Positions 39,446 to 58,800 of a stretch of 64,000 bases of DNA are shown piece after piece. The translations under genes were made by a program, and so were the position numbers. A model generated the notes under the pieces. It did no database searches and was not told the origin of the DNA. It was given only the letters and a program-made list of their open reading frames with translations. This DNA is from Telopea speciosissima (Eukaryota > Streptophyta > Magnoliopsida > Proteales > Proteaceae), in the NCBI RefSeq assembly GCF_018873765.1, contig NC_057916.1:14094001-14158000 (forward strand), in the 5' to 3' direction. The first letter of the stretch is position 1. Each line of letters opens with the position of its first letter.

Positions 39446-42400
39446 ATGGCCAGTGCAACAACTAAAGTCCGATTAGTTCTATGTCCCAGATGTCGAAAGG
39501 TTCTCCCTGAGGTGCCTGAACTTGCAGTGTATATGTGTGGTGGATGTGGTGCAGTCCTTCAAGGTAACATTCTTTTCATATAGAGTAGTTCTGGGTAGGT
39601 CTAAGAGTAAGATTAGTCCACAAACACATCACACTAGATGTCCTGAAACATTGGGCTTTTTCCCCTAGTTTGGTTTGGTCACATTTAGCGTTTTACTGCT
39701 GCTAAGTATGGTTGAATTAGATATTCTCTTGAGCAAGAGATTGGTATATCCTAATCTTCAAATCTGTAGTCCTGTGTCATTTCAATTCGTAATTCAATTT
39801 TATTATTAGCATAGCTTGTCTCTTAAATGGTTGACAAGTGAATTGTATCCATCCTCCTGCATGACATTGATTGACCTACTTAATGCACACATTAATTTCT
39901 CAAATCCTTCTTATTATACTTATAATGTTGTTGGATGCAGCTAAAAATCGCAAAAATGGAAGCTCTGGATCACTTGAAAAGAGTATTCAGAAGAACCAAT
40001 TGGAGCATGATTCTGAAGACGTAAAATCACCCAGCTCAGGTCAAATAGAAAACCATTGTGACACAAAAGAATGTTCATCATATCTGAATGCGAAAGAGCA
40101 ACTTAAATCTACGGATTGCAGTATCGAGGCATCTGGAAGCAGCAATTTCTTGAGTGAAGTTTCTTTGGGCGAGTCAGAATGTTTGTCAGATCTGAATGCA
40201 GAGGAGCAATTGGAACATGATTCTGAGGATGTAAAGTCAACAAGATCGGGTCAAACAGAAAACCATCGCGACAAAAAAGAGTGTTCATCAAATTTGAATG
40301 TGAAAGAGCAACTTGAATCTACGGGTTGCAGGATCGAGCCATCTGGAAGCAGGAATTTCTTGAGTGGAGTTTCTTCGGGTGAGTTAGAATGTTCATCGGA
40401 TCTGAATGCAGAAGAGCAATGGGAGAACCAATTGGAGCATGATTCTGAAGATGTAAAGTCAACTAGCTCGGGTCAAATAGAAAACCATCGTGACACAAAA
40501 GAGTGTTCATCGAATCTGAAAGCAAAAGAGCAAATTGAATCTGCAAATTGCAGTATTGAGCCATCTGGAAGCAGGAACTTCTTGAGTGCTGTTTCTTCAG
40601 GTGATTCAGACTGTTTGTCAGGTCTAAATGCAGAAGAGAAAATTAAATCTACAGATTGTAATATTGAGCCGTCAAGAAGTAGGAACTTCCTAGATGGAGT
40701 TTCTTCAAGTGATTCATTGGATCTTGATAGTGAGAAACAGCAAATTGAATCTATAGATTGTAGCATCAAGCAAACTGGAAGTAGAAGTTTCTTAAAAGAA
40801 GTTGCTTCAAGTGATCTTAGTGATCATGGAAGGGAAGAAAAGTCATCTGAAGCTGGATGGAATACACAAGCAGATGAAAGTGATGAAAGTCAAAGTCTTG
40901 ATGGCCAACTGTCTTCTAGGGGAAGGAGCTCATCCTTTACAGCTCAGAGACTATCTGATGAGAGCAACAACAACAACAGCTCAGCCTTATCCCAATTAAA
41001 TGGGGTCGGCTACATGGATCCTTGCCCTCCAATCAGCATCAAGAAAATGAGTTTCACACCTACAAATAAACAGTTGCAGCAATCTCATGGGATTTCTTAC
41101 CATGACTCCGACCATACAAGGTCAATAGGTATAGATGAGGCTTCAAGAACTATTGACAATGGGAACATTTCAGAGGAGCTCGGTGGTACACCTAGAAATA
41201 TTTCAAAATCTTCAACAGCCAGAAGCTCTCATGCTTATGATGCTAGTGTTTCTTCTTGTGATGGATGGGATGACCAGGTCACTGAGCAGCCTCCAAACCT
41301 ACCTAAAAGATCTTGGCTCAACTCCCAAGTGGTTAGTGACTTTGCTTCTAAGAAGGAGAGACCAAGAATGGATGATGGGGTGGTGTATAAGAAGATAATT
41401 AAAGATCCAGAATTGCAACATCAACTGAGAAAATTCTTCTCAATGTCATCAGATGAGAAGCATGGTCTGGCTGCCATGGATGGTCTGAAGTGGGAAGGAT
41501 CCAGAATCCAAGCACAGGGGGGGCAAGTGGGCTCACCAGATTCTGATGGTCTCCATCCCATAAAGAATTGGATGAGTTCCATAAGTGATGAATTTTGGTC
41601 TAGGGAGCCATCCCAAAGGGGTTTCCCCACTGTCTATGAGAATGGCAGCCCTTCAAACTATGGGCATGAAGAGTTTTTGTCCAGGACAAGTGCACACAAT
41701 TCTAGCAAACTTGACTACTCTGAACAAATGGAATTATTAAGAAAGGTGGATGAATTGAGAGATCAACTTAGTAGATTATACAACCAGAGAGGAATGGAAA
41801 ATGGAAGGTTTCCCACCGGAGGCACTCAGCAGGAAAAGCTGCAACCACTGTATTATAGGTATGGACAACCTGACCCCGAAGTTCCACATTGGTATGATGC
41901 AAACCATCATATGCATCCTCATGTGCCATTCAGGACAAGAAAAAACGGGTGCCAAAAATGTGAATTTTCACAAATGCATTTCTCAGGACAGGTTACAACT
42001 TGTATAAACCATGTTGATTATTCTTCTGATCATTGTTGCCCAGACGACTGGCAATGTCAGACCCAGTTTCCACCCTCCAGCACTTGCTGTAGCAAAGGGC
42101 CATCCAGAGGCCATTCTGGTCAAATGTTCTATGGACCTTATAGTTCCAGTTCTTCCACTCAGCCGAAGTATATGGATCCTTATTTCTCCCTACAAGGTTG
42201 CCAGATGCATTCCCAAGACCAGGGGCATATGGTCCATGATGTGCAAAAAATATACTATCAGAATAGACATCAGCCTGTTAAGCGACATTGCAGGCCCATT
42301 GCAGGTGGAGCCCCTTTTATTATGTGCTATAGGTGCTATAAACTATTGCAGCTTCCTGAAGATTTTATCTCGCAAAAGAGGATACTTCGGCTACAGTGTA

Positions 42401-42792
42401 GTGCCTGTTCACAGGTACTTAAGTTTTCACTTCAGAACAGAACTCATATCATTCCTTATTACCCAAACCCAGTGGTGCCTCCGCCAAGTGAGGTTGACAA
42501 CAGTGACTATCCACAAGGGGACCCAGTGTCATATTCTGAAGATTGTGGACCCTCAATGCCTTCAAGCAGTTATTCGGAAGCAAACATAACGAGCAAGAAT
42601 AAGCGAGCCTGGAAACAATCTGGAAACAATTGTATGACTTCCATAGCAGCATCTGAATCAGCCAGTGCATCCTTGAATGTGGCCAGACTGGAAAGTTCAT
42701 CCGTGGAAGGAGAAGTGGCACCACGATCATCTAGTTCAGCACTCCATCGGCTTATGGGTTATTCTTCCCCTAGCAAAATCATACATGGATAG
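39446..42792 (+). CDS. EDR4: ENHANCED DISEASE RESISTANCE 4-like protein (DUF3133 zinc-ribbon family)
   Basis: Exons 39446-39563 and 39941-42792 (CAAG/GTAACA donor, ATGCAG acceptor) encode 989 residues. The first exon holds a small zinc ribbon, CPRC at 13-16 and CGGC at 31-34, placed as in EDR4 proteins. Residues about 826-885 form the C-terminal DUF3133 zinc ribbon: FIMCYRCYKLLQLPEDF (Cys835, Cys838) and LRLQCSACSQVLKF (Cys859, Cys862). Residues 60-300 are acidic, Ser-rich tandem repeats of 70-74 residues starting at 60, 130 and 204 with LEHDSEDVKS, plus weaker copies. A short coiled coil (MELLRKVDELRDQLSRLYNQ) lies near 610. In Arabidopsis, EDR4 binds EDR1 and clathrin heavy chain and limits powdery-mildew-induced cell death (established knowledge). 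This protein is longer than Arabidopsis EDR4, mainly through the repeats. Residues about 382-400 are encoded by a dispersed repeat. The ATG at 39871 lies in the intron. Confidence 0.9.
40000..40640 (+). repeat. In-frame tandem repeats within the EDR4-like coding region
   Basis: Units start at 40000, 40210 and 40432 (periods 210 and 222 bases, both multiples of three), each with TTGGARCATGATTCTGARGA. A partial fourth unit follows. The frame is kept, so repeat number changes only protein length. Confidence 0.85.
40964..41022 (+). repeat. Dispersed plant repeat embedded in EDR4-like exon 2
   Basis: (AAC)n followed by AGCCTTATCCCAATTAAATG and GGGTCGGCTACATGGATCC. The same core occurs at 57349-57400 in an intron on the opposite side of the window. 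I recognise this motif from memory as a common interspersed plant sequence. Here it is read in frame and adds a NNNNSS...LSQLNGVGYMDP segment. Confidence 0.65.
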
Positions 42793-43480: not shown

Positions 43481-43731
43481 AAATTGTTTTACCATTTTAC
43501 CCTTGGTCTCTCTCGGATAGTAAAAAAGTAGATGTAGAAAAAAGAGGTGACGACTGGTGTTAGTGTAAGGGGGTATAAATAGTGTTCTTGGCTTGTGATA
43601 GTAGATCTTTAATATGTTTCCAAGGGCAATGGAGTTGGTTTGAGATGGAACAACATCACTGATCTGAGGGTAAGAGCATCAAACTTTTTGTAATTTTATT
43701 TTGGAGAGAAAAAAAAATTCTAACGTTAATC

Positions 43732-43803
43732 GCGCCAGGTAGGGGTCGAACCTACGACTTTCTGCTTAGGAAACAGACGCTCTATCCACTGAGCTACAGG
43801 CGC
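43732..43803 (-). tRNA. trnR-CCU: tRNA-Arg (anticodon CCU)
   Basis: A 72-nt cloverleaf on the minus strand: acceptor GCGCCTG pairs with CTGGCGC (one T-T mismatch), D arm GCTC/GAGC with AGTGGATA loop, anticodon arm TCTGT-TTCCTAA-GCAGA giving anticodon CCT, and T arm GTAGG-TTCGACC-CCTAC. The internal A and B promoter boxes are intact. A T run follows the 3' end as a Pol III terminator, within the 20 bases after GATTAACG. There is no intron and no encoded CCA, as expected for a eukaryotic nuclear gene. It looks like the standard plant tRNA-Arg(CCU). Confidence 0.95.
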
Positions 43804-55800: not shown

Positions 55801-58800
55801 TTGAAGTCAACTTCTTCAAGCATCGAGTCTTTTATATCTTTGACAATGCCAACCTACTGAAAGGATGGATAAGATTGATACCCAAAACTTCTAACACAAG
55901 AACAACCAAAAAAAAGAAGGCAGATAAACAAAGAAAGAACTGTTAACTTTCTTCATTAACTGAACGCATAGGATAAAACAAATGTGAAAATAAAGATAAG
56001 GATATAAGACAGGGTCATTGTTTCGAATTGACAACCTAGAAATGCCCTTTACACGGACAAATCATAAATTGATTCCACAAATCTACTATTTTAACTGATA
56101 ATAGGAAATCCATTCCTCAAAACTAGCAGTACTAACTGCAATCATAGTTGTCAAGGCGGCTAGGTGACACCAGCAAGGCGACTAGGCGACAGCGCAATGC
56201 CTAGGTGACACCTAAGCAACGCCTAGGCAACACCTTGACAACTATGACTGCAATAAATGGTGAGCTCGCTATCTCTACTTGGAACTATAAGAATTTCAAC
56301 TCATAAGCTCTAATAGTTTCAACAAGAGGTGTTGCATCCATTTACATGACATTTACTCTTATTTAGAAAAACTAATAGTAAGATCCATCATGACATTAAA
56401 AATGACCCACCCTAATTTGCCACTCAAATTTGGCATCAAAGTCATAAAAATAAAGAGTTGCAAATATAGGTAGTTAGGCATTCATCATCCACATACCAGT
56501 GACGCACGGCTGAGCTCAGGGTTCAGGAATTCCAAAATGCGGGCGACAACATATACAAAGTTTAAATCAGCAACTAATATATCCTCTATCCCAGGCTTTA
56601 AGACCTTTATCACAACACTCTCTTCGGAACCTCTGAGTTTTGCACCATGAACCTGAACAAAAAATTTAAAGCTTCTCATCATATGCCCTGAAGTGGGGTG
56701 AGAAAAGAAATTCGAGAGAGCATACAGTAAACCTGAGCAATAGAGGCTGAGGCAATAGGCACAGGATCAACATACTCATAGACACTTTCTATTGGCCTTC
56801 CTAATTCCTCACGCAGAATAGCTTGAATTTCTTCGAAAGGAACTGCTGGAGCCCGGTCAAAGCAATTCTGAAATTCCTCAACATATTCAGGTGGAAACAA
56901 TGTTGGAGCTGATGCAATGAACTGCCAATTGCAAGAACAAATAAAGAGCATGAGAAACACCAAGCAGACAATTCACAACCTAAGTTGAGTCAGGATCAAG
57001 TTTTCCAGGGACATGGGTGAGTTCATGAGGAGTTGAGTTACAGGTTGACCTTTCCTCCCAAAGGTTAGGTTTTGGTTGGTTCCCAACCCACTCAAGATGC
57101 ATGTCTCCCAGTAAATTATGAAATCTTTCCAACTAAAAATATTTAGAAAGAAACATAGGCAAACAAGACTTACCTGACCTAACTTGATGTAGGTAGCTCC
57201 CAAGCGTTCAAATAACCTCCTTAAATAACGTGGAGAAAGTAATCCCAGCTGCATTTGAGTTGGCAAATTCCCAGATGCATTGGCTGTCTGCAGAGAACTC
57301 AAGAGTATCAGTAATCATTCATTGTTACTAGACACAATGGCTAATCTCAACCAACAACAACAACTTAGCCTTATCCCAACTAAATGGGATTGGCTAATGG
57401 CTAATTTCAACTCCCACCCCCAAAAGAAAAGGACTCAAGAGGATAATGATACACATAGCAGAGAAGACAAATATGGAACCCAGCATCATGCACAATTTTA
57501 CAGATACAAAGACTTGGCACAAATGTAAAGATCAGTATGAATAACTCTAAGATTCCATCTACACAATATATCCCCAGTCAATAATTGAATTGATCATTTT
57601 TTTTTTTGGGGGGGGGGGGTTGTTTGGGTCCACAAATGTTTACTAGATTCTCTTGACAGTAAGAAAAAATAAACTGATGCTTGAATGCTAATAATTCCAA
57701 ATCAGGTCATTTTTGGTGAGACGAGACCCATTGAATGCATAGTTGTGCACCATGTTACTAGAGTTGAAGCTTAGAATAGTGGAAGAGAACAAGAGAAGAG
57801 GAGAGAAGATGAGAATGAGAGGTAAGAGGAGGAGGAGAAGGTTGGCGGTAATGACTTGGGGAGAGAATTGGTCCCTCTCCCGTATATTCATTCACTTGCT
57901 AATATTATATGGGAAATAGAATATACACTATAAGGTAGCCTAGGGAGGTAGAAGGGACAAAGCACAACACAAGAAAATAACAAAGTACCTAAAGTACCCT
58001 TATTACATAACTCTAACAACTAGATATTCCATTTATAACTAAACATAACATTTCATACCTCAAAAACTTATTTTTTTCAGTTATAATTCCTATGGTTGTT
58101 GATGGGATCAAGGATAAAGCAGTTGGGCATCAATATGCCAATTATGACAGTGTGATTAACCTCCATAATAATGTTATGGATCCTAAAACAGAAAGCTCAG
58201 CATGTGAACTCTGATAAAAAAAAATGTAAAGAGAAATATCAGAGCAGCAGCAAAAATCAATCTGCTGGTGAATGAAAGGGGAAGAGAATAAAGTTAAAAA
58301 ACCGTTACTGAATCCAAAAAAGAGAAGAAGATATCTTTCATGCAACAAATGGTTGTGTGATATGTGATTGTTAATATCTTTACTTAAACAAAATGTGAAT
58401 TTATACAAATCTTTCTCTTGGAACAGTGGTAGTTGGATACTATAAAGATACTGATAATAAGACAATATCACCAACAAATGTAAGAAATGACCTCTTCTAA
58501 GTATCTCGAAGTCCATAAGTATTTGCAAGATCAAAACATTTCTATAATTAGAGCAGAGTTGTAGAATAGGCCTAGGTGACCAGGAAGCTCAAAGAGTTCC
58601 TAGCTGACTGTAAAATTAGGACGCGACGAAGGTTCCAATTTTACATTTCGCTACCAGATAACAGCCTAAGTATAGTTTTTCGCTAATCCAGCGACTGATA
58701 AAAGTTGAAGCGATTGTAGACCACCGTTGCCTCGTAACGAGCAACAATCTTCTTACCTTGCCTTCTACAAGACAACAGCTGGGTTGGGTGGGATGTGAAG

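Follow-up and report, generated by a model that had tools for sequence, protein, structure and literature searches.

Element-derived sequence that joins a host reading frame is known from studies of transposable-element fragments in coding exons and of Alu exonisation (for example PMC2394776 and PMC4731929). Plant LINEs of the RTE clade, such as RTE-1_STu of potato (named in PMC3747384), have a reverse-transcriptase ORF, a 3' repeat of (TTG)n and many 5'-truncated copies. According to PMC3747384, the 3' repeat of RTE LINEs in plants is (TTG)n or (TTGATG)n, and poly(A) is the ending of almost every plant L1 element. PMC9033089 gives (GTT)n for RTE and, citing Seibt et al. 2020, reports that many angiosperm SINEs have a 37-bp Angio-domain at their 3' end. 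This domain is a conserved terminal segment common to many elements.

The locus described here, an EDR4-like gene with a repeat fragment in its second exon, shares features with all three systems. Its likeness to the RTE-clade LINEs lies in the (TTG)n 3' repeat, the strong truncation and the reverse-transcriptase sequence of related copies, whereas the insert is a 73-nt scrap without activity of its own, assigned to a putative clade by its tail and the likeness of the C terminus. Like the Angio-domain it ends in a segment that many elements share, but it carries LINE coding sequence past that shared end. In contrast to Alu exonisation, the fragment sits within an existing exon and no new splice site is seen. 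The insertion is a further instance of a known, ordinary kind of event.

The host gene and the repeat in its second exon

The window, the whole 64-kb stretch that was analyzed, is C1:14094001-14158000 of an 823-Mb assembly of 1287 contigs. It holds the following features.

39446..39563, plus strand: exon 1 of the EDR4-like gene, with the EDR4-like_1st zinc domain; boundaries drawn from sequence and reading frame
39941..42792, plus strand: exon 2 of the same gene, one uninterrupted frame with a C-terminal Zn_ribbon_12; boundaries drawn likewise
40923..40964, plus strand: left flank of 42 nt, without counterpart in the paralogue and unique in the genome
40965..41037, minus strand: probable RTE-type LINE 3' end lying antisense to the gene, recognized from 97% identity over 73 nt, the minus-strand translation and the translation of the family
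40987..41003, plus strand: 17-base core, TTATCCCAATTAAATGG, with exact matches in the window and the genome
41038..41042, plus strand: right flank of about 5 nt, inside the paralogue's 120-nt gap, its edge ambiguous by a few bases
57345..57405 (limits approximate), minus strand: second, shorter LINE-tail copy of about 45 nt, flanked by a target-site duplication, AATGGCTAATYTCAAC

Joined at these boundaries, the two exons encode a predicted product of 989 residues. Exon 1 matches the Pfam family PF22910 (EDR4-like_1st) at 41.2 bits and exon 2 matches PF11331 (Zn_ribbon_12, the EDR4 zinc ribbon) at 64.2 bits over exon-2 residues 787-830, each against a cut-off of 27. The gene therefore has both the N-terminal EDR4-like zinc domain and the C-terminal EDR4 zinc ribbon by which the family is recognized. 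Both domains are intact and distant from the insert, which lies in a low-constraint, Ser/Asn-rich linker. Comparison of exon 2 with solved structures gave no match at E values up to 0.1. A Pfam match to Elicitin in exon 2 was set aside as chance, since it scores 19.8 bits, below its cut-off of 25, and falls in a tandem-repeat part of the exon. This in-frame tandem repeat has a unit of about 210 bp in 3.0 copies with 81% matches (window 39997-40644), and the alignment suggests fewer units in the paralogue, so that the number of repeats would set the two genes apart more than the LINE fragment does. A tRNA-Arg gene (anticodon CCT) lies just downstream of the EDR4-like gene, on the minus strand at window 43731-43803.

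An initial sequence-only reading had reported a motif that occurs twice in the window, the first time in frame within exon 2 of the EDR4-like gene, with both zinc ribbons left intact. All of this stands. Exact matches to the core (TTATCCCAAYTAAATGG) lie at 40987-41003 and 57371-57387. Within the 64-kb window this recurrence is a weak test, as 16 of 100 shuffled sequences also gave at least two core matches with up to 3 mismatches allowed. Across the 823-Mb genome, the core has 1791 + 1721 = 3512 exact copies, against 0 for a reversed control pattern. It is therefore a true dispersed repeat, as the same reading had supposed. A literature search with the exact repeat sequence and with "Angio-SINE" returned no match.

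The segment had been placed at 40964-41022. Repeat-derived sequence is indeed present there, and the homology extends further: the best genomic copies match 40965-41037, a stretch of 73 nt, at up to 97% identity (E 1.6e-26; query 40900-41110, best 40 of 1721 candidates). The same 73-nt match is regained with a 75-nt segment as the query (best 40 of 1633 candidates scored). Read on the minus strand, the insert gives ADWRARIHVADPI-stop and then the tail; it would thus be made up of the last codons of a LINE ORF, a short 3' UTR and a (TTG)n tail, which the plus strand shows as (AAC)n.

Read in the direction of the gene, the fragment supplies residues 382-405, NNNNSSALSQLNGVGYMDPCPPIS, about 24 amino acids, and the residue stretch across the insert edge includes SNNNNSSALSQLNGVGYMDPCPPISIKK. 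The start given earlier (residues 382 to about 400) is confirmed, and translation moves the end to 405. The gene strand of the fragment is stop-free in two of its three frames, so its open reading is unremarkable by itself. The length of the host frame is singular among the copies scored. In a survey with the 28 residues around the insert as the query, which covers the best-scoring copies in the insert's own frame, the insert lies in a frame of 973 codons and the other 149 copies in frames of 25 to 106 codons (150 best of 7544 candidates). The open frame suggests that the fragment is translated.

Relation of the repeat to RTE-type LINEs

On the strand that corresponds to the gene, copies of the family begin with (AAC)n followed by CTCAGCC, then have the core and GGGGTCGGCTACATGGATCCTTGCCCTCCAATCAGCTCTATTC, and continue beyond it. 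The other strand carries the end of an ORF, WRARIHVADPI-stop, followed by the (TTG)n tail. The pattern WRA-x-I-x-V-A-x-PI-stop-LG is present in 27 of 37 loci (L001-L038 without L009), a set mostly picked for likeness to the insert and including two loci, L019 and L026, without an exact core. Of three pieces searched against Pfam, those upstream in L004 and L013 match the reverse-transcriptase domain RVT_1 (E 5.3e-13 and 1.6e-13, respectively), and the C-terminal piece from L017 has no Pfam match. In L013, the reverse-transcriptase piece and the C terminus share a strand but not a frame, which is what decay of a copy would produce.

The same elements thus have a reverse-transcriptase domain upstream, and their 3' end is (TTG)n rather than poly(A), the (AAC)n of the gene strand being equivalent to (TTG/GTT)n. 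Their C terminus presumably resembles that of the RTE clade. Taken together, the tail and this likeness make an RTE-type LINE, represented by its 3' end in inverted orientation, the best reading of the fragment. The earlier description as a fragment of a transposable, dispersed repeat holds insofar as the element is of high copy number; in place of an unnamed motif, we find what appears to be a LINE 3' end, longer than proposed and antisense to the gene.

The tail is carried by more than one subfamily, because four loci that share it (L002, L004, L005, and L031) diverge after GGATCC. Several LINE subfamilies may accordingly have one 3' end in common. When translated, L002 and L004 reveal a related LINE C terminus, and their 3' UTR is longer. 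At another locus (L018, C11:3465277-3465505), two LINE 3' ends are separated by about 156 bp and accompanied by a repeated flank, which looks like a local duplication of tail and target.

The fragment is absent from the closest paralogue

The closest paralogue of the EDR4-like gene (C2:3566349-3569057) is 66.5% identical over 850 aligned codons. Its ORF is continuous over the site, reading SSRG-EMNF against SSRG-(40 codons)-KMSF in the window gene, and the 6 kb around it contain no 23-base core, even when up to 5 substitutions are allowed. In one gene of the pair at least, the exon therefore existed free of the fragment. The earlier reading had interpreted the segment as exonized. We reject exonization in the strict sense, in which an element supplies or activates splice sites, as the fragment lies inside a single uninterrupted exon and the paralogue has both flanking sides in one continuous ORF. 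The event is instead an insertion into coding DNA.

We favor the following account, which we hold to be very probable as a whole. A copy of an RTE-type LINE, strongly 5' truncated to its last 73 or so bases, would have inserted, antisense to the gene, into a large exon 2 that was already there, probably after the gene duplication. The stop-free frames on the gene strand, together with the net change in length, would have preserved the reading frame. The copy would have landed between the two zinc domains, in a stretch under weak constraint, where NNNNSSALSQLNGVGYMDPCPPIS is now encoded. The route may have been target-primed reverse transcription or another one, and the change was probably near neutral.

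Three features count against a simple insertion. The stretch missing from the paralogue measures 120 nt (window 40923-41042, give or take a few bases) and not 73. It reaches 42 nt past the element on the left and about 5 nt past it on the right, so that either a deletion in the paralogue or extra bases in the window gene are needed. In addition, the ends of the fragment are fuzzy at 73 nt, and changes in the flanks are therefore required to keep the frame. Finally, the EDR4 insert has no detectable target-site duplication: the best match in narrow and wide flanks is 5 nt and 712 of 1000 and 280 of 300 shuffles, respectively, do as well. The second copy in the window, by comparison, has a target-site duplication matching at 15 of 16 bases, a score reached by 0 of 1000 shuffles; it adjoins minus-strand pieces, two of three with ABC1 kinase-domain matches, and may lie, as the initial reading proposed, in an ABC1K9 intron. 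The 120-nt gap and the lack of a detectable duplication leave any mechanism and age given for the insertion provisional.

The age was approached through sequence divergence. The window gene and its paralogue differ at 40 of 211 fourfold sites (corrected, 0.219), and comparison of window 39943-42789 with C2:3566394-3569054 gives dN of 0.184-0.203 and dS of 0.224-0.289 by two methods. The insert has 2 differences from the family majority, 1 of these within 40 compared columns. For comparison over the same columns, 30 copies were sampled through an exact match to a 23-base anchor next to them; of these, 23 have more differences than the insert, 4 have equally many, and 3 have none. A neutral insert older than the duplication should have gathered about 6 to 8 changes on 60-73 nt (expectations entered, 5.7 to 8.0), under which the probability of at most 2 changes is 0.014-0.077 and that of none is 0.0003 to 0.0033; as the expectation assumes near-neutral evolution, the argument is moderately strong. 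In a subfamily test, exact genomic counts for the four combinations of the insert's two differences in a 31-base pattern are 595, 27, 11, and 3, the insert being among the 3, and the two differences are associated with a p value of 0.024 with the insert and 0.115 without it. The low divergence, with too few changes in the fragment for an older age, favors insertion after the gene duplication.

The order of events could be the reverse, with the fragment present in a single ancestral gene and lost from the paralogue by one 120-nt in-frame deletion. This would explain why the gap is larger than the element on both sides, and the left 42 nt, being unique in the genome, may be ancestral gene sequence. 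Distant EDR4 paralogues, at 30% and 36% identity, are too diverged to serve as an outgroup; the translation of the 42 nt is weakly like one of them (BLOSUM score 30, 20 of 500 shuffles as good) and shows no likeness to the second, where 126 of 500 shuffles did as well. An ancestral fragment, however, should have accumulated the 6 to 8 or so changes calculated above, against at most about 2 differences from the common family states, and we regard this history as rather unlikely. If the extra 42 nt arrived jointly with the fragment, as filler in double-strand-break repair or as part of a chimeric insertion instead of an ordinary LINE insertion, then the absence of a target-site duplication, so clear at the window's second copy, and the gain of 120 nt in a single block relative to the paralogue would both be accounted for. 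Such filler should have a donor, but a genome search with 40 nt (40925-40964) and up to 3 mismatches recovered only the window itself, and a short BLAST search with the left 42 nt against the family loci examined and the window gave only the window, copies from the same locus and chance matches. Moreover, the fragment begins exactly at the LINE 3' tail, as truncated reverse transcription would give, which leaves joint filler quite unlikely.

Other explanations concern what the fragment is. It could be the 3' fragment of a SINE with an Angio-domain, given that plant SINEs share 3' ends with partner LINEs (PMC3747384) and that the 37-bp domain ends many angiosperm SINEs (PMC9033089). A tRNA-derived head with A and B boxes would mark such an element, and the insert is too short to hold one. 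Against a SINE, the insert does not stop where the shared 3' end does but runs on into CCTTGCCCTCCAATCAG, a coding stretch of the LINE (ADWRAR), and a longer form of this continuation is present in 410 genomic copies. The motif may resemble the Angio-domain; a SINE origin is very improbable. Stretches of (AAC)n and of Asn and Ser residues are common in disordered protein regions, so a chance resemblance, or ancient EDR4 sequence unrelated to the repeat, might also be considered. Its likelihood is negligible against 97% identity over 73 nt to dispersed copies (E 1.6e-26), an exact LINE C terminus on the insert's other strand and the 3512 core copies in the genome. An inverted, 5'-truncated insertion of an RTE-type LINE thus stays our preferred reading.

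Constraint on the protein and possible consequences

With dN close to dS, the EDR4-like protein as a whole appears weakly constrained. Scraps of elements are expected in weakly constrained, disordered parts of proteins, given thousands of copies, and the general view is unchanged by this locus. We consider it highly improbable that the 24 LINE-derived residues and the roughly 14 adjoining ones, likewise missing from the paralogue, form a working part of the EDR4-like protein; if they did, a jumping gene would have supplied a segment that now distinguishes the two duplicated immune-regulator genes. The effect of the fragment is directly testable, as a sister gene free of it lies in the same genome.

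The locus would provide a small, clean example of a truncated retrotransposon that extends the coding content of a plant gene and leaves the gene unbroken. On this reading, the recurrent motif in windows of this kind is the 3' end of a LINE, and comparisons of genes and domains should mask it.

Just past the insert, dN exceeds dS (0.230 versus 0.142 over 153 codons). Together with the closeness of the two rates across the gene, this may indicate relaxed or, possibly, positive selection.
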